A stretch of DNA of 36,898 bases, from NCBI GenBank assembly GCA_030651065.1, contig JAUSCU010000025.1, positions 1 through 36,898 of the forward strand, written 5' to 3'. This stretch comes from Candidatus Omnitrophota bacterium (GTDB lineage: Bacteria > Omnitrophota > Gorgyraeia > 1-14-0-20-64-10). The notes beneath the pieces are model-generated. The model searched no databases. It was not told the DNA's origin and was given only the letters and a program-made list of their open reading frames with translations. The position numbers were made by a program, and so were the translations under genes. Below, piece after piece: positions 25,854-35,120 of this stretch. The stretch's first letter is position 1; every line of letters starts with the position of its first letter.

Positions 25854-26129
25854 ATGAATGGAAAACCTAAAAAAATAGGCCGGTCGCCGAACATAAGCTC
25901 CCATGAAACCCCCGGAGGATCGGTTATCCTCTCTCATGAAACGGGTAATCTCTTTTCACTCAATGTCACTGGAACGGAGATTTGGGATCACTGCAGAGAA
26001 GAGCGCTCTATCGATGAGATCGTATCGTTTATGAGCCAAAAATATGGCCTCCAAACAGAGGCTTTCCGGACCGAAATCTTGTCTTACGTGGAACAGCTGC
26101 AGCAGGCGGGTTTCTTCAGAATGCTCTGA
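25854..26129 (+). CDS. PqqD-like (RRE) protein, copy A
   Basis: GGSVILSHETGNLFSLNVTGTEIWDHCREERSIDEIVSFMSQKYGLQTEAFRTEILSYVEQLQQAGFFRML; typical PqqD winged-helix pattern. Confidence 0.85.
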   Translation: MNGKPKKIGRSPNISSHETPGGSVILSHETGNLFSLNVTGTEIWDHCREERSIDEIVSFMSQKYGLQTEAFRTEILSYVEQLQQAGFFRML

Positions 26130-26133
26130 GTCG

Positions 26134-27189
26134 ATGGACGCGAACCCCGTTATCCCAAAGTTGATTCGAGCCGCCCTTGAGAAGGAACCTTGCCTGAAGA
26201 TTTCCTCCACCGGCACAAGCATGCTGCCCACGATCCGCCCCGGCCAGACAATCTGGATTGCTCGAGTTCGGCCCGAAGAAATCCGGCCCGGAGATATCAT
26301 TTTGATCCAGAGCTCTTCGTCCTTGGTCCTCCACCGGCTCCACCGTATCGAAAAAAGAGAGGGCGCTTCGCCTGTTTTTATCACGAGCGGGGACGCCTCG
26401 GGAAAGCTGGATACCCCCTGCCGAGCCGAATCCATTCTGGCAAAAGTCATCAAGATTCAGGAGGATTCGGGAAGCGGTTTCCTGGATAAATTTTCCAATG
26501 GGTTTATCCGTTCTTACGAAAACCTCTTCGCTTTTCCATACCGGACCTATCAACGGTGTGTAGGAAAACAATGGTACGGCCTCCTTCACCGCACCGTCCG
26601 AAAAGTGTCGGGCGGACGTCCGGTGGCAGCCCCGCTGATGGCCCTTTTCCCAATGGGTTCCCGAGCCATGGCGTTGGTTCCCCTAAGGAGGGCCCTTCGA
26701 AGGAAAGCGGCTTCGCTCCATCGTTTTCTGCCGGGAGGAACCGTTGAAAAACGGGGAACGCCGGACTCCGTCGAGCCGATCCTCGAACTGTGGAACCGCT
26801 CCGTTCCCCATCCCTCCGGCGAAAGCGCAGACAACCTGAAAAAGGAGTTCCTTGCGGCTGATCTTCCCGGGCAAAACTCATTCTGTTTTACTTTTACACG
26901 GCACGGAAAGACGCTGGGATTCCTGTCGGGATACGGGAGTTCTATTCAAGCCATTGCCGTGGATCCTGATTTTCGAAGAAAAGGCATCGGCTCCGCATTG
27001 CTGGAGGCGCTGTTGAAAGAGGCCCGGCGGCGAGGGGTTCGACAACTGGTCGTCTCGAGAAATCAGGGTATTTTCCCTAAGGTGGAGTTTTCAAAGTATG
27101 AGTCTGTGGTGCTTTTCTTTTCACGATGGGGATTCTCCGTTGAAACGACCTGGGAGGGACAGCTTGTCTGCCTGAGGTTTGCGTTATGA
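26134..27189 (+). CDS. Fusion: S26 signal-peptidase-like domain plus GNAT acetyltransferase domain
   Basis: ISSTGTSMLPTIRPGQTIWIARVRPEEIRPGDIILIQSSSSLVLHRLHRIE...FITSGDASGKLD (Ser/His type); C-term IQAIAVDPDFRRKGIGSALLEALLKEARRRG. Start chosen at MDANPV after the PqqD stop. Confidence 0.85.
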   Translation: MDANPVIPKLIRAALEKEPCLKISSTGTSMLPTIRPGQTIWIARVRPEEIRPGDIILIQSSSSLVLHRLHRIEKREGASPVFITSGDASGKLDTPCRAESILAKVIKIQEDSGSGFLDKFSNGFIRSYENLFAFPYRTYQRCVGKQWYGLLHRTVRKVSGGRPVAAPLMALFPMGSRAMALVPLRRALRRKAASLHRFLPGGTVEKRGTPDSVEPILELWNRSVPHPSGESADNLKKEFLAADLPGQNSFCFTFTRHGKTLGFLSGYGSSIQAIAVDPDFRRKGIGSALLEALLKEARRRGVRQLVVSRNQGIFPKVEFSKYESVVLFFSRWGFSVETTWEGQLVCLRFAL

Positions 27190-28406
27190 AACTGCCGCTC
27201 TCCCTCCTCGTTCTTACGCTGAATGAGGCCAAAACGCTTCCCTTCTGTCTCGCGCCGCTGAAAGACCATGTTTCGGAGATCCTGGTCTGCGACACCGGAT
27301 CGGCGGACGGGACCCCTCGCATTGCAAAGCGGCATGGCGCAACCGTTTTTTTTCGACCGCCCGTGAAAGACGGCCGGCTGGACAGGGCGAGGAATTTCCT
27401 GATTGAGAAGGCCGCGCAGCCGTGGATTTTGTTTATTGACGCGGATGAGCAAATCGCTCGAAAGAGCATCCCCTTGCTCAGAGCTCTGATCCTGCGTCCA
27501 AAAGCGGACACCTATTATTTTCCGAGAAGAAATTATTCCGATACCCTTCCCGTTTTGTATGAATGGCATCCCTGCCGCCGGGAATATCCGCGGGAAGAGC
27601 GATTTTCCCGTTGTCACGGTTATTATGAAACGCCCCGGATCTGCCTTTTCAGAAATCAACCCCGGCTTCGCTATGAAGTTCCGGTTCATGATTCGCTCCT
27701 GCCTGCCATACAACGCCACGGCATTTGCATTCAACCGGCCGATCTGCCGATTCACCATTTTGAGTTTCACAAAGGAATGGGGCATCACATCGAGAAACAC
27801 CGGTTCTACGCGAAAATCCTCAAAAGGCTCATCCGCCGCGTCCCCGCATACACCCCCGCCTATTTTTCCGTTGTTCGCGATCTGATAGCCAGCGGCTCCA
27901 ATCCCAAGGAAACACTCCGCTTCGCGCAGCGCCTGACGGCGAAAGCTTCGCACTCGGACGACGCCTGGACATTACGGGGGGTCGTCGAAATGGAAGCTGG
28001 GCGATACCTGGAAGCGGAAGCTCATTTTAAAAAAGCCATCCGGCTTGAAAAATCCGCCCGGAACCTGTGCTTACTCGGCTGGCTTTATCTGAAAAAGGGG
28101 GATTATTCGTTATCCGAGAAAATCCTGAAGGAATCGCTTGGAAAATCGCCTCTCCAACCGCTCACCTTGAATCTGTTGGGAATCGCGCGGGAAAGGACGG
28201 GGGAAATAAAAAAAGCGCTCCGCTCTTTTTCAGAAGCCGGCAGGATCCATCCCGGCTACGCCGAGAGCTTTTATAATCAGGCCGTGATCCGGGGGCGTTT
28301 AGGGGACCTGCGCGGGTCGAGAAAGAATTACGAGAGGTCGCGTCAGCTCTTTTCGGCGATGAGGATGTGGCGCATCGAGTCGGGCGTCGGCGGATCGGCA
28401 TCGTAG
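27186..28406 (+). CDS. GT2 glycosyltransferase with C-terminal TPR repeats, copy 1
   Basis: LSLLVLTLNEAKTLPFCLAPLKDHVSEILVCDTGSADGTPRIAKRHGATVFF...LFIDADEQI; C-terminal TPR-like helices (MEAGRYLEAEAHFKKAIRLEKSARNLCLLGWLYLKKGDYSLSEKILKESL). Confidence 0.88.
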   Translation: MKLPLSLLVLTLNEAKTLPFCLAPLKDHVSEILVCDTGSADGTPRIAKRHGATVFFRPPVKDGRLDRARNFLIEKAAQPWILFIDADEQIARKSIPLLRALILRPKADTYYFPRRNYSDTLPVLYEWHPCRREYPREERFSRCHGYYETPRICLFRNQPRLRYEVPVHDSLLPAIQRHGICIQPADLPIHHFEFHKGMGHHIEKHRFYAKILKRLIRRVPAYTPAYFSVVRDLIASGSNPKETLRFAQRLTAKASHSDDAWTLRGVVEMEAGRYLEAEAHFKKAIRLEKSARNLCLLGWLYLKKGDYSLSEKILKESLGKSPLQPLTLNLLGIARERTGEIKKALRSFSEAGRIHPGYAESFYNQAVIRGRLGDLRGSRKNYERSRQLFSAMRMWRIESGVGGSAS

Positions 28407-29158
28407 TTTCCGCAGACCTGCTTGAGCGCGAGGCCAGCTTTTCGAAACATCGCTTCAAGTTCTTCAACGGCGTAGATTCGAATAGAAAACGAGAACTCCT
28501 TGCGTTTCCCGTTCTTTAAAATTCTAATTCTCTTCTGGACGTTGCGCCCCGTGGCGGGGTCAAATTGTCTTTCCACGAGGACCGCCGAACCATCGGAAAA
28601 TTGCTGCCAGTCCTTTACCTTCTCGCGGTAGGTACGGGCGATGTAGTCCCGGTTCATGATGTCGAGCACGAACCTGCCACCCCGCTTCAACGCCTTCGCT
28701 GTTTGATCAAGGGTTTTTTGATCTTCTTCATCGCTTTCCAGGCAACCGAAAGCACTAAAGAGGTTCAGCGCGACATCGAACGTGTCCTCGAAAGGAATCT
28801 CGCGCATGTCTCCCCTGACCCAACGCACAGAAACCTCGGCACGGTTTGCCGCTTTTTTCGCTTCGTCGAGGAAAAACGAGTTAAGGTCCTGTCCGGTGAC
28901 ATGGTAGCTGCGGCGCGCCAACTCGATCGAATGGCGCCCGTGGCCGCAGGGGCAATCCAAGATTTCATCGCCTCGCTTGAGCGCGAGCGTCTTTTCAAGA
29001 AAATCAATCTCCGCGAGAGTTCTCTCCGGCGTGAGATCGTATACGTACTCTTTCAGATAATGGGGGCCGAAAAATCCGGCCTTTTCACTGTACCAGGGGG
29101 CTTGAAACGGATGAACACGCGCAATCGCAGACCTAACAGCTTGCCGCAGGGGCAACAA
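28343..29158 (-). CDS. Class I SAM-dependent methyltransferase, copy 1
   Basis: EILDCPCGHGRHSIELARRSYHVTGQDLNSFFLDEAKKAA...VRWVRGDMREIPFEDTFDVALNLFSAFGCLE; probable TTG start. Confidence 0.88.
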   Translation of the reverse strand: MLPLRQAVRSAIARVHPFQAPWYSEKAGFFGPHYLKEYVYDLTPERTLAEIDFLEKTLALKRGDEILDCPCGHGRHSIELARRSYHVTGQDLNSFFLDEAKKAANRAEVSVRWVRGDMREIPFEDTFDVALNLFSAFGCLESDEEDQKTLDQTAKALKRGGRFVLDIMNRDYIARTYREKVKDWQQFSDGSAVLVERQFDPATGRNVQKRIRILKNGKRKEFSFSIRIYAVEELEAMFRKAGLALKQVCGNYDADPPTPDSMRHILIAEKS

Positions 29159-29179: not shown

Positions 29180-29293
29180 TTAGGTGGCTGAAGAAACCAT
29201 GAAACGGATATTCCCCTCGCGAGTCGCCTTGGGCGGCTCGTAGACCGCTTTCTTATCCGAACCGGATTGTTTTGAGGCTTTCTTGTTCTTCAT
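29180..29293 (-). CDS. Candidate RiPP/leader-type peptide 1 (37 aa), not in ORF track
   Basis: ATG with RBS AAGGAGGGACTCC; MKNKKASKQSGSDKKAVYEPPKATREGNIRFMVSSAT; shares YEPP-x-x-T-x-EGNIR-x-M with peptide 2. Confidence 0.75.
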   Translation of the reverse strand: MKNKKASKQSGSDKKAVYEPPKATREGNIRFMVSSAT

Positions 29294-29480: not shown

Positions 29481-30692
29481 GTGAAACTGCCGCTCTCCCT
29501 CCTCGTTCTTACGCTGAATGAGGCCAAAACGCTTCCCTCCTGTCTCGCGCCGCTGAAAGACCATGTTTCGGAGATCCTGGTCTGCGACACCGGATCCACG
29601 GATGGAACCCCTCGAATCGCGAAACAGCTCGGCGCGACCGTTTACTTTAAACCACCCCTAAAGAACGGGCAGTTCCATCAGATCAGAAACTTTTTGCTAA
29701 AAAAAGCCGCGCACCCCTGGATTCTGTTTATTGACGCGGATGAGCGAATTGCCCAAAAAGACATTCCTTCTCTCAAAGAACTAATCTTGCGTCCAAAAGC
29801 GGATGTCTATTCCTTTACAAGACGAAATTACTCCAATCTGCTTCCCTTCCTGTATGAATGGCATCCGTGCCGCGGAGAATACCGAAAGGAAGAGCTGTTT
29901 TCCCGCTGCCACGGTTATTATGAAACATCCCGGATATGCCTTTTCAGGAACATCCCTCAACTCCGTTACGAACTTCCAATCCACGAAACGCTAGCGCTTT
30001 CCATACAACACACCGGCATTCGCATTCAATCGGCCGCTTTCCGAATTCACCATTTTGAATTTCGTAAAGGGGTGGCGCATCACCTTAAAAAACACCGTTT
30101 CTACGCGAAAATCCTTAAGAAGTCGGCTCATCGTTTGCCCGAATACACGCCGGCCTATCTTTCCCTGGTCAGCGATTTGATGGCCTGCGGCGGCTCGGCC
30201 AAAGAAACAATCCATTTCGCCCGGCGGTTGACTACACAAGTTCCATGGTCGGACACCGCTTGGAACCTAAGGGGCGTCGCAGAAATGGAAGCCGGCCGGC
30301 ATAGGGAATCGGAATTGCATTTCAAAAAAGCGATCCAACTAAAAAAATCGGCCCGAAACCTGTGCTTGCTTGGTTGGCTCTACCTGAAGAAAAGAGATTA
30401 TTCATTATCTAAAAAAATGCTGAAAGAATCTCTCGGAAAATCGCCTTCCCAGCCCCTTACTTTGAACCTGCTGGGGATCGCTCACGAAAGGACCGGGGTG
30501 ATGCGCGAAGCTCTTCGTTTTTTCTCGGAAGCCGGACGGATCCATCCCGGCTACGCCGAGAGTTTTTACAATCAAGCGGTGGTCCAGGGACGTTTAGGAG
30601 ACCTGCGCCGCTCAAAACAAAATTTCAACCGAGCGCGCCGGCTTATGTCAGCTTTTATCGGCGACGACGATGCAGCGCAGAGAGTCCGCTGA
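29481..30692 (+). CDS. GT2 glycosyltransferase with C-terminal TPR repeats, copy 2 (GTG start)
   Basis: Full-length paralog of 27186-28406, near-identical over the first ~117 nt. Confidence 0.87.
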   Translation: MKLPLSLLVLTLNEAKTLPSCLAPLKDHVSEILVCDTGSTDGTPRIAKQLGATVYFKPPLKNGQFHQIRNFLLKKAAHPWILFIDADERIAQKDIPSLKELILRPKADVYSFTRRNYSNLLPFLYEWHPCRGEYRKEELFSRCHGYYETSRICLFRNIPQLRYELPIHETLALSIQHTGIRIQSAAFRIHHFEFRKGVAHHLKKHRFYAKILKKSAHRLPEYTPAYLSLVSDLMACGGSAKETIHFARRLTTQVPWSDTAWNLRGVAEMEAGRHRESELHFKKAIQLKKSARNLCLLGWLYLKKRDYSLSKKMLKESLGKSPSQPLTLNLLGIAHERTGVMREALRFFSEAGRIHPGYAESFYNQAVVQGRLGDLRRSKQNFNRARRLMSAFIGDDDAAQRVR

Positions 30693-31472
30693 GAGGGGAT
30701 CGGCATTGTGGCTTCCATACATCTTCTTAATCGTCAGCCCGGCTTTGCGCAACATTCCCGCAAGCTCCTCAACGGTATAGACGCGAATGAATAACGAGAA
30801 TTCTTCGCGATGGCCGTCTTTGCGAATCCTGATTCGCCTCTGAAGATTGCGTCCGGTCGCGCGGTCAAACTGCCTTTCAACCATAACCGCTGAGCCGTCG
30901 GAAAACTGTTACCAGTCCTTCACTTTCTCACCGTAGGCGCGGACAACATATTCCCGGTTCATGGTGTCGAGCATGAATTTGCCGCTGCGTTTCAGCGCCT
31001 TTCCTACTCGATCGAGAGCATTCTGATCCTCCTCGTCGTTCTCCAAGCAGCCAAAAGTGCTGAAGAGGTTCAGCGCAATATCGAACTTGTCCTCGAAAGG
31101 AATTTCGCGCATATCGCGCTTGATCCAACGCACCGAAACCTGAGCGCGCTGGGCGGCATTCCGCGCTTCGCGAAGAAAAAACGAGCTAATGTCCTGTCCG
31201 GTGACCTGATAGCCGCGCCGCGCTAATTCAATCGAGTGGCGCCCGTGACCGCAGGGGCAATCCAAAATCTCAGCGCCCGGTTTGAGCGCGAGCGCCTTTT
31301 CGAGAAAATCAATCTCTGCCAGAGTTTTTTTGGGCGCGATATCGTACGCGAATTCTTTCAGATAGTCCGGGCTGTAAAAACCGGCTTTTTCGCTGTACCA
31401 CGGAACTTGAAGGGATTCCTGCCTTGCAGCATAAATGAGGGCGCGCATCCGGGTAACGACAGGCCTAACCAC
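30648..31472 (-). pseudogene. Class I SAM-dependent methyltransferase, copy 2, interrupted by in-frame TAA
   Basis: 30909-31472 ends ...GEKVKDW*; the same frame continues QFSDGSAVMVERQFDRATGRNLQRRIRIRKDG... to 30648. Copy 1 has Gln at the stop position (KVKDWQQFSDGSAV). Confidence 0.85.
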
Positions 31473-31516: not shown

Positions 31517-31651
31517 TTAATAAATAGCTGCAATCATCTGGCGGATGTTTCCCTCCAGGGTCATGCGGGGAGGTTCATAGGAAGCTTGCTTGCCTGAATC
31601 CGCCGGGCGATCTGAAACCGATTTACCCTGAAGTTTTCTCTTTTTGTTCAT
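31517..31651 (-). CDS. Candidate RiPP/leader-type peptide 2 (44 aa), not in ORF track
   Basis: ATG with RBS CGGAGGGATGCGAAT; MNKKRKLQGKSVSDRPADSGKQASYEPPRMTLEGNIRQMIAAIY; same motif and gene position as peptide 1. Confidence 0.77.
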   Translation of the reverse strand: MNKKRKLQGKSVSDRPADSGKQASYEPPRMTLEGNIRQMIAAIY

Positions 31652-31705: not shown

Positions 31706-31975
31706 TCAAAGGAATCGAACGAATCTCTCTCTCCGAAGTTCTTCAAAATATTGCTCGACATCCATGGCGGCTTGCTCGCGAGGAATTCCATATTTTTCAG
31801 AAAAACGACCGGCGATCTCGCTGAGCAATCTTTTTCCGTCCATTTCCTTCCATAGATACCCACCGGCTTTGTTCAAAAAACGATAGTTGCCATTTTCAAC
31901 ATCCAGAATGATCCCCTCTTTCCATTTGGACTTAAAAAGAACGCCTTTGGCTGGTGCCGGTCTCTTGTTTTTCAC
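31706..31975 (-). CDS. PqqD-like (RRE) protein, copy B (GTG start overlapping upstream stop)
   Basis: GVLFKSKWKEGIILDVENGNYRFLNKAGGYLWKEMDGKRLLSEIAGRFSEKYGIPREQAAMDVEQYFEELRRERFVRFL. Confidence 0.87.
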   Translation of the reverse strand: MKNKRPAPAKGVLFKSKWKEGIILDVENGNYRFLNKAGGYLWKEMDGKRLLSEIAGRFSEKYGIPREQAAMDVEQYFEELRRERFVRFL

Positions 31976-33633
31976 GCTTTTTCTACCGCCTTTACCATAT
32001 CCGGTATTCCGGAGGGACCATAGGTCAGCTCAAATCCCCGCGCCTCATGCGCCAGACGATTTAGAATGGCGCCGTGCGTTCGCCACAATAGGTCCCGCTG
32101 TCCATAACCGCAGTTCATCTTGTAATAATCATCGGACTTCAACCTATCAAGCGTTTGAGCGACAGACAACGGCTTCAGCGTCAACCCCCCGTTTTCCCGA
32201 AACTTGGGGAAAATGAGTTTTCTCACGCGGCAAACACTCCCTAATGGACCATCCCAAACGGCCTGAGGATGAATGCAGTGCTTGCCAACCGATCTTTCAT
32301 AATGGAATTTCTTTCGAGCCCCCGGAAAATTGCGCAAAGATACCGCCGGCAACGCTATCCGGTTTGGAAAACTTTTTCCGACCACTCCAGTTCCATCCAT
32401 TTGGATAATAGGATGCTCATCGGAATAATAACGGTATCCGGACCGCAAAAAGACCACGGATAAGGTGCTTTTCCCTGCCCCGCTTTGCCCCATGAACAGT
32501 ATCCCGTTATTTTGTTTTGAGACCAAAGCCCCATGCACCAACGTGGCTCCGCTTCTTAACAGCAAAAAGGATACCGGGAAGAGGAGGATGTTGTGATACA
32601 ACGCGTTTTCAGGGAGCGCTTGCCCCGTTTTCAAAAGAATCAGCGCCTCGGCATGGCGGGACGAAAAAGAGCATCCGATGCCGTCTTCCCACCATCGGCG
32701 CAGAGCGCACGCTTCGAGATCGCTGCCGGGATAGAATACCCCGGAACTTTTGTGACGCATATTGAGAAGCAGATCGGATGGGCCAAATTTCGCCGGAACG
32801 CTCCAAGGCCGGACGGGACAACAGAGATTTTTTCTGAGCAGAGAAAAACATTCCGGATCCGCCGAAAGAAGCCGGATCTTCCAGCCATGAAGCTGAAAGC
32901 TGACGCCGCGCGAAGCCTGCGGCAGATCGATCGCGTCCCGGGTGAGCACATTCGCGCTGCCGTCCCACCGGACAAGCCGATCCGTTAAACTGCCGGAACG
33001 CAACCGCTGAACATAGACGCAACGATCGATAAAATAAAACCGGGTCTTGCCCCAAAGACGCATAAGAAGATTCGTATCATGAGCGACCTTCAATCCAGGA
33101 TGATAACCGCCTGCGGCCCGGAGAACCGATTTCCTGAACATCACGCCTCCGTGAAAAGTGTGCCAGGGAAAACGCTGAAGGAGGCCGCTCTTCATCGGAA
33201 AACGGTTCGATTTATTTCCAAGAGGACTCGCCCACCCGAGTATTTCTTCTCGATCCCTTTTAAAAACAATGGCGTTCCCTAACACAACTCCAACTTGGGG
33301 GTATTGGTCAAAAATGCGCGCCCCCTCCGCGAGCCTTCCCGCCAGCATGATATCGTCGGAATCGTGAGGCGCTATGTACCTCCCGCGGGCATGCTTGCGG
33401 ATGTGGTTATGCCCGTATGAAGCGCCGCGATTCCGCTTGACCCGAAAAATCCGGACCCGGGCATCCTTCGCGTAAGACTGTGCTATCGCAAAAGTTCGAT
33501 CGGTTGAGCCGTCGTCATAAATGATGAGTTCGAAAGAGATTCCCTTCTGCTTCAGAACGCTTTCGATGGACGCGGCGAGAAATCGTTCGGCATTGTAGGC
33601 GGGCATTGCCACGGTGACCTTGGGATTTTTCAT
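31972..33633 (-). CDS. Fusion: GT2 glycosyltransferase plus HprK-like kinase domain
   Basis: N-term KVTVAMPAYNAERFLAASIESVLKQKGISFELIIYDDGSTDRT...PHDSDDIM; C-term GILFMGQSGAGKSTLSVVFLRSGYRYYSDEHPII (HprK-type P-loop). Start trimmed to MKNPKV. Confidence 0.88.
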   Translation of the reverse strand: MKNPKVTVAMPAYNAERFLAASIESVLKQKGISFELIIYDDGSTDRTFAIAQSYAKDARVRIFRVKRNRGASYGHNHIRKHARGRYIAPHDSDDIMLAGRLAEGARIFDQYPQVGVVLGNAIVFKRDREEILGWASPLGNKSNRFPMKSGLLQRFPWHTFHGGVMFRKSVLRAAGGYHPGLKVAHDTNLLMRLWGKTRFYFIDRCVYVQRLRSGSLTDRLVRWDGSANVLTRDAIDLPQASRGVSFQLHGWKIRLLSADPECFSLLRKNLCCPVRPWSVPAKFGPSDLLLNMRHKSSGVFYPGSDLEACALRRWWEDGIGCSFSSRHAEALILLKTGQALPENALYHNILLFPVSFLLLRSGATLVHGALVSKQNNGILFMGQSGAGKSTLSVVFLRSGYRYYSDEHPIIQMDGTGVVGKSFPNRIALPAVSLRNFPGARKKFHYERSVGKHCIHPQAVWDGPLGSVCRVRKLIFPKFRENGGLTLKPLSVAQTLDRLKSDDYYKMNCGYGQRDLLWRTHGAILNRLAHEARGFELTYGPSGIPDMVKAVEKA

Positions 33634-33634
33634 C

Positions 33635-34879
33635 CTAGCCCTTGGCCTTTCCATGGATCACGCGCGACAAGATGCCGATCATTCGCATGGGAAGAACACC
33701 GATCCTCTTCATGAAGTACAAGGGCCTGCTCGAAAGATATTCCGAAGAGGCCCGGGCCCTTTGCCGTTCAAATGAAATCCACCATTCCAGGAAAACACCC
33801 CAACCAAAGGCAAGCGCAGGACAATTCAGCAGCGACATCCGGATCTCCTCCGCCCCGGAAATTCCTTGCTCGATCTCCTGCGGGCGCCGCAAGACGTTCG
33901 GAACCTGGAGATCGGAACCTAAGGCCAGGGAAAGGACCGTTTTTCTGTAGCGGACCGGGAGACGGATCCCCCGGAAACGCTCTACCAGACCCAGAGACAC
34001 TGCCATCGCTGTCGTCAGTCCGGTACGGTGTGCGATTCCGAAAACATCCTCCCAGTCGATTTCTGTTCCATGTCGCTCGATAAGACAAGCCATGTCATTC
34101 ACAAGGTAGATTTGCGGCTTTCCGTCTTTCAGCAAATTAATACTTAAATAGATTATATGCCCCGCAGGGGACAACCCGGGGCAAGAGTGTGCGGTTTGGG
34201 TCCGGTAAGAATTCCACGGAACGGGACGGCATTGCCCTCGGAGCCACTGCAGAAGACGGCCGGCGGAATCCCCCTTTAGATGAAAATTGGAAGGCGTTCG
34301 GAGGAGCTCGAGAGCGATGGGGTTTTCCTCTACGCCGGTTTTTATGAACGGGAGGTCGTGATCTATTTTCCAGTGCTCTTGCCAAGTAAGCGGAAACCGG
34401 GGTTGGAACCTAAAATCCAAGGATTCGACAATGCGTACAGCGTCCGAAAGCTGCTTCTCTTCTCCGAATATCAGCACATCCAGATCGGCGCTTCCTCTGG
34501 AAATGGGAATTTCCCCATAAATCCAGCGGTGCGAGAGAGGACCCTTGACCGCGGCGAACGGGAGATCGGAATCGGACAAGGCGGAGCACAGCTGCTCAAG
34601 AGCAGCTCCTTGAATAAAATCCTTTCCCATCGCCCAAGAGTACTCCGCAGTCATCTTGCGGTTGATTTCAGCCGGCAGTTCTTTCGAAATCGGCTCCAGA
34701 TGAAACCAGAGGTAGCCGTTCAAATGGTGCGCGTTCATGAGAGAGAAAATGCGCGGCCAATCCGTTGGGCGAAGAACCCGAAGCTTGTTTAAGTACTCTT
34801 CTTTGGGATGACGGTGATAAGAGGAGCAGAGGAAGACGAACTCTTCGCAAGCCGTAAGGGGATCGGAGCTATCGCTCAT
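33635..34879 (-). CDS. Nucleotidyltransferase family protein (NTP_transf_5-like)
   Basis: LPFAAVKGPLSHRWIYGEIPISRGSADLDVLIFGEEKQLSDAVRIVESLDF; start trimmed to MSDSSDPLTACEEF. Confidence 0.85.
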   Translation of the reverse strand: MSDSSDPLTACEEFVFLCSSYHRHPKEEYLNKLRVLRPTDWPRIFSLMNAHHLNGYLWFHLEPISKELPAEINRKMTAEYSWAMGKDFIQGAALEQLCSALSDSDLPFAAVKGPLSHRWIYGEIPISRGSADLDVLIFGEEKQLSDAVRIVESLDFRFQPRFPLTWQEHWKIDHDLPFIKTGVEENPIALELLRTPSNFHLKGDSAGRLLQWLRGQCRPVPWNSYRTQTAHSCPGLSPAGHIIYLSINLLKDGKPQIYLVNDMACLIERHGTEIDWEDVFGIAHRTGLTTAMAVSLGLVERFRGIRLPVRYRKTVLSLALGSDLQVPNVLRRPQEIEQGISGAEEIRMSLLNCPALAFGWGVFLEWWISFERQRARASSEYLSSRPLYFMKRIGVLPMRMIGILSRVIHGKAKG

Positions 34880-34927
34880 AACCCTATTGTCCCTTCCTTG
34901 CGTCTGGTTCGTCTGGTACCAAAATGG

Positions 34928-34945
34928 TTGCCCCGCTAGGATTCG
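34928..34945. repeat. 18-bp direct repeat of the tRNA-Gln 3' end, distal copy
   Basis: ttgccccgctaggattcg, identical to 35121-35138. Confidence 0.9.
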
Positions 34946-34948
34946 GCG

Positions 34949-34985
34949 CCGAGCCCGGCCGCTCCGCGGCCACGGTGCTCGGTCG
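34949..34985. other. GC-rich compound hairpin
   Basis: CCGAGC-cc-GGCCGC-tcc-GCGGCC-acggt-GCTCGG nested inverted repeats. Confidence 0.75.
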
Positions 34986-35079
34986 CCACTCGGCCTCGGT
35001 GGAGTCCCGTGCTCCTGCACGTCGCACGGCCTGCATAAAAGAAGCTCGGCCTCACTTCGAATCCCAGAGGGAAACCTGA

Positions 35080-35115
35080 TGAAGCCGTTCGAACCAAAAG
35101 GTTCAGCCGGCTTCA
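35080..35115. other. Hairpin adjacent to tRNA 3' end
   Basis: ATGAAGCCG-ttc-GAACC-aaaa-GGTTC-agc-CGGCTTCAT perfect nested arms. Confidence 0.75.
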
Positions 35116-35120
35116 TAAAA

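Follow-up and report, generated by a model that had tools for sequence, protein, structure and literature searches.

Two paralogous mini-peptide genes in an Omnitrophota locus as candidate precursors related to linear polyphosphorylated peptides

The stretch of DNA analysed here (the window; 36,898 nucleotides, contig JAUSCU010000025.1, from a Candidatus Omnitrophota bacterium) encodes two paralogous small peptides, A and B, that are probably precursors of ribosomally synthesized and post-translationally modified peptides (RiPPs) resembling those of the linear polyphosphorylated peptides (LPPs). They would have a minimal core and belong to a linear, cyclase-free sister group of the phosphorylated lasso peptides, being bound by a RiPP recognition element (RRE), trimmed by an S26 peptidase and modified by enzymes of the locus. 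Judging from the sequence, coding, conservation, the gene set, the duplication, the fusions and the absence of B2 from the genome as assembled are established, and from these we infer RRE binding, the cleavage site, the assignment of enzymes to modifications and the product.

Peptides A and B and their relatives

Peptide A (37 aa; 29180..29293, minus strand) translates as MKNKKASKQSGSDKKAVYEPPKATREGNIRFMVSSAT and consists of a Lys-rich N-terminus, the leader block YEPPKATREGNIRFM and the tail V-SSAT. The sequence-only reading of this DNA had described a 37-aa ORF with a strong ribosome-binding site, and this is confirmed, the Shine-Dalgarno sequence AAGGAGGG ending 5 nt before the ATG. It had also noted a lasso-leader-type motif, YEPPKATREG, with Ala at the Leu position, which falls within the published lasso RRE motif [Y/W]xxPx[L/V/I/F/A] (PMC13381572). 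Its remark that the leader leaves no space for a lasso core is borne out too, as 10 residues follow the Gly and the tail has 4-5 residues. What it overlooked is peptide B, the tandem duplication, the neighbouring S26 peptidase and the GT2/methyltransferase units. Peptide B (44 aa; 31517..31651, minus strand), a paralogue of A with the leader block YEPPRMTLEGNIRQM and the tail I-AAIY, is flanked by the PqqD-B and MTase2 genes, all on one strand, and ends in MIAAIY, which has neither Ser nor Thr. The two peptides are 51% identical (19 of the 37 aligned residues in common), and 11 of these 19 residues are encoded by different, synonymous codons. Over the 37 aligned codons there are 14, 12 and 23 differences at positions 1, 2 and 3, respectively, and within the leader block amino acids stay the same while third codon positions drift. 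These codon patterns indicate that purifying selection acts between A and B.

By itself the leader motif is weak evidence for a gene. When windows were dinucleotide-shuffled (n = 200), small ATG ORFs matching [YW]xxPx[LVIFAM]xxxG occurred at a rate of 0.47 per shuffled window, and 13 of the 200 shuffles had at least two. An ORF that arose by chance could therefore be argued from the motif alone, which turns up about once in every two windows, but the conservation of the peptide in B and in related genomes contradicts this. We consider a chance ORF highly improbable and take the 37-aa ORF to be a real, coding gene because it is conserved in peptide B and in relatives of three other genera.

These relatives were found by collecting PqqD neighbourhoods and then re-profiling. 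A two-sequence profile of A and B gave confident matches only to the window copies among 59 related genomes, and the motif pattern found only the same two copies in 293 genomes of the class, the pattern being too strict for the relatives that profiles found. Re-profiling of the PqqD neighbourhoods yielded the peptide MSEKKDQKKTKSTKYQKPVLKHLGNLRQVTFLSGE in genome G005; the peptide in G004 is MKNDRKKKQQAKRSKSEGEKPTLKPLGNLRQITSFSSY, with Gly at the place of the Tyr, and a later class-wide profile yielded MKQADSKKKKTKAPYQRPTLKPLGNLRQITLLGGS in G002. All three are 35-38 aa long, adjoin PqqD genes, come from three further genera of the same family and end 4-5 residues past Tyr+15. The tails of G004 (T|SFS) and G005 (T|FLS) follow the LPP rule T(-1)|xxS(+3). 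The sequence-only reading had named a lack of conservation in relatives beforehand as a result that would refute it, and the ORF withstands this test: peptides of the same type do stand beside PqqD genes in the three other genera. The class-wide profile was built from short-tailed, Lys-rich members, and precursors of the radical-SAM type were not recovered with it. A scan for leader-like ORFs, in which a polar, K/R-rich N-terminus was required, covered the window, 40 regions with PqqD or NTase and 198 kb of control DNA. The window and the 40 regions together gave 24 ORFs (22 plausible and 2 clearly unrelated) and the control DNA gave 2, of which the one plausible ORF was located in a PqqD region. 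In other families, looser relatives whose tails are short or longer adjoin PqqD genes, and G043 and G068 each have several peptides in tandem whose longer tails are related. Longer and often Cys-rich precursors with a similar leader were seen at L088, L094, L102, L105 and L112, where the loci have radical SAM genes.

Enzymes of the locus

The genes for NTase, GT2-HprK, PqqD-B, peptide B and MTase2 form, in this order, a same-strand run. The discrete RRE PqqD-B (31706..31975, minus strand; Pfam PF05402, E 1.3e-15) retains, in alignments, residues corresponding to N33 and D70 of LppB. These two contribute to holding the proline and tyrosine of the leader in place, D70 as the hydrogen-bond partner of the Tyr (PMC13381572). 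A second discrete RRE, PqqD-A (25854..26129, plus strand; PF05402, E 4.4e-15), has Glu at the LppB D70 position. The PqqD profile matches lasso TbiB1 and the RRE structures of the LPP paper; the PqqD tree is poorly resolved, and PqqD-B is a long branch without placement in it, which counts against the LPP-like reading. Next to PqqD-A lies an archaeal-type signal peptidase (S26) fused to a GNAT domain (26134..27189, plus strand; TIGR02228, E 2e-12, just under the cutoff, and Acetyltransf_1), whose Ser/His/Asp triad is intact in an S26 alignment and which we propose as the leader peptidase. The GT2 fused to an HprK-like kinase (31972..33654, minus strand) has an intact P-loop, GQSGAGKST, and SDE in place of the usual DD, a replacement also present after the P-loop at L098, L126 and L089. 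Since the DD is important in BsfK (PMC10368454), DE in its place counts against the LPP-like reading, a point softened by the presence of this E in G002 and G004 too. The LppN/BsfN-like nucleotidyltransferase is NTP_transf_5 (33635..35116, minus strand; PF14907, E 1.6e-24). Elsewhere, at L107:4650-6608, a sulfotransferase domain is fused to an NTase.

The tandem repeat has two copies of a unit in which a GT2-TPR gene faces a methyltransferase gene and a peptide gene on the opposite strand, one peptide in each. Copy 1 of the GT2-TPR glycosyltransferase (27186..28406, plus strand) has GmaR and SunS as the nearest solved GT domains, and copy 2 (29481..30692, plus strand) is 73% identical to it. 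The first SAM methyltransferase (28343..29158, minus strand; PF13649) lies just downstream of peptide A and matches the daptide-type methyltransferase model with E 3e-17, below the cutoff. Its second copy, MTase2 (30648..31472, minus strand), has a single in-frame TAA at 30909-30911 and in the remainder aligns at ~69-70% to copy 1; this broken gene counts against the LPP-like explanation. GT2-TPR proteins are widespread in ordinary glycan loci, which counts against tying them to the peptide, so what links them to it is co-duplication, together with fusions in other loci. The AlphaFold model of the GT2-TPR protein, made from a 2-sequence alignment, is poor (pLDDT 51). Among the fusions, Pfam confirmed PqqD-GT2 proteins in G040 and G043 that adjoin mini-peptides, and in G004 the C-terminus of a PqqD protein (L108:8061-8456) is itself the leader motif KKSYEPPAFEKYLEIRRGRSVA, an RRE-leader fusion that stops 3 residues past Tyr+15. 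Taken as read from the gene sequences, the fusions PqqD-GT2, GT2-HprK and PqqD-leader tie these domains together. As a separate observation, L091 and L092 (G040:C9) have nine PqqD domains in ~25 kb; several of these domains are fused to GT2, and short leader-like peptides lie beside them.

In the mechanism that we propose, the YxxPx[A/M] block would bind a PqqD/RRE protein, for which PqqD-B is the best candidate, and the RRE would then bring the C-terminal tail within reach of the modifying enzymes encoded at the locus. The tail would be modified by the GT2-TPR glycosyltransferase and the methyltransferase that are duplicated alongside each peptide, and the GT2-HprK fusion and the NTase would possibly add phosphate or a nucleotide. 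The S26-GNAT protein probably cuts ~15 residues past the Tyr, by which a modified peptide of 4-5 residues would be freed. The main rival to this is that the mini-peptide stays uncleaved and acts in trans as a leader on the RRE, activating or recruiting GT2, HprK and NTase for another substrate, for example a glycan. The very short and variable tail, the RRE-leader fusion of G004 that ends so soon after Tyr+15 and a neighbourhood rich in GT2 would suit such an adaptor, but the signal-peptidase triad is intact at the locus, G004 and G005 keep the T(-1)|xxS(+3) signature of cleavage and phosphorylation, and the tandem peptides of G043 and G068 are typical of precursors. We therefore regard the adaptor as unlikely, though it deserves to be kept in mind, and the LPP-like reading as the better account. 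The same signature in G004 and G005 supports the LPP-like reading, and so does the finding that none of the fetched loci has both S26 and B2. Further support comes from the place of B between PqqD-B and MTase2, from the fusions, from the PqqD profile matches to TbiB1 and the LPP-paper RRE structures, and from GmaR and SunS, the nearest GT domains, being glycosyltransferases of proteins or peptides.

The lasso peptide question

The family also has lasso-type clusters. In G001 (L106 5934-11978) the cluster comprises NTase, PqqD, B2, a lasso-type asparagine synthase (the cyclase), a precursor and HprK, and the precursor has a longer core, with the core region GKNPGPSDDFNACVPIS. In G006 there are PqqD, B2, an asparagine synthase, a longer precursor, HprK and a GT2-NTase fusion. 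B2 (PF13471) scored above the cutoff only in G001 and G006, both with longer lasso-like precursors; it had no match in G004, G005 or the window genome (G000) as assembled, and G002 has one weak match, under the cutoff and on a different contig. As the window genome is 89% complete, the absence of B2 from it is not absolute. No lasso-type macrolactam cyclase is present in the window locus. That A and B are true lasso precursors with an unusual core could be argued from the leader motif, HprK and NTase, which accompany the paeninodin and Bsf lasso peptides too, but apart from the lack of B2 and of a cyclase C beside the precursor, a tail of 4-5 residues is too short for a lasso ring, which takes 7-9. 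Lasso peptide identity was therefore rejected, and we give it next to no weight. Another explanation is that A and B are relics, that is, lasso precursors that degenerated after loss of the cyclase and B2. The lasso-type clusters with longer cores in the same family and the stop codon in MTase2 would fit a relic, but the divergence between A and B is biased to synonymous changes, the tail length is near-constant across four genera, and RRE, peptidase triad, kinase P-loop and NTase are all intact, which makes decay improbable.

Comparison with known systems

The LPP system, lpp of Paenibacillus alginolyticus (Popov et al. 2026), has been described as restricted to Bacillota and its final product is not known (PMC13381572). 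All four members of the LPP core set, SpI, RRE, HprK and NTase, are in the window. Both systems have an SpI-like peptidase with Ser/His/Asp, a discrete RRE, an HprK-like kinase, an NTase, no cyclase, a YxxP leader, a variable C-terminus and a glycosyltransferase-rich setting, and LPP precursors are 35-200 aa long. They differ in that the characterised LPP core has 45 aa with phospho-Ser3 whereas the tail in the window has 4-5 aa without Ser3. Unlike in LPP loci, GT2 and GNAT domains are fused to the kinase and the peptidase, respectively, and the peptide has been duplicated together with GT2-TPR and methyltransferase. The window shows no MsbA-like exporter; its sole ABC-ATPase match (1605-2393) lies outside the cluster, next to a PBP-like protein and the permease of a transporter. 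Of the Bacillota LPP consensus YxxPxVLxHQxIxFETxxS, A and B have YxxP and the hydrophobic residue at -5 but neither T(-1) nor S(+3). Both the lack of an exporter in the window and this partial match count against the LPP-like reading. A putative porin (PF16930) is also encoded in the window; this hints at an outer membrane and speaks against the host being a typical member of the Bacillota.

Characterised kinases modify core residue 3. LppK accepts only Ser, neither Thr nor Tyr (PMC13381572), and BsfK accepts Ser and Thr but not Tyr (PMC10368454). In the LPP register, the third core residue of A is Ala and that of B is Ile. In the Bsf lasso register, which places the leader Tyr at -17, they are Thr and Tyr, respectively, and position -2 is Val in A and Ile in B, a known variant. 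Because LppK refuses Thr and Tyr and BsfK takes Thr, phosphorylation by the known rules appears plausible at best for A and unlikely for B. The tail expected from the kinase rule fits in G004 and G005, as far as their sequences tell, and not clearly in the window. The suggestion of the sequence-only reading that a kinase could target the Ser/Ser/Ala/Thr tail thus suits A and does not hold in general; a Ser/Thr tail as the general kinase target was rejected for B, whose tail lacks both residues.

Tentatively, we propose that tiny ribosomal glycopeptides of 3-5 residues may be made in a lineage not known for LPPs, by way of a leader, an RRE and a signal peptidase of the LPP type, and be modified by GT2-TPR and methyltransferase co-duplicated with the precursor. 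If this is true, cores of 3-5 residues would be the smallest known in the lasso/LPP group, and with cores so short the finished molecule should be relatively simple to predict and to search for. The locus suggests that the LPP-type set of peptidase, RRE, kinase and NTase occurs in a lineage other than Bacillota, and the natural fusions PqqD-GT2, GT2-HprK and RRE-leader point to a linked glycosylation step.

The phosphorylated lasso peptides Bsf and paeninodin (PMC10368454) resemble the window system in the YxxPx[L] leader, the RRE-assisted HprK-like kinase and the nucleotidyltransferase, and in the Bsf register also in Ile/Val at -2, and are unlike it in having B2, a cyclase and a ring-forming core. 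SunS, the glycocin S-glycosyltransferase, and GmaR, the flagellin glycosyltransferase, resemble the window copies, which have a GT2 plus TPR layout, in the GT2 domain; the similarity spans ~90 residues of the GT domain. Finally, while the window locus is without a radical SAM enzyme, it has in common with the mycofactocin and PQQ systems a PqqD-type RRE and a small peptide precursor with a very short effective core.
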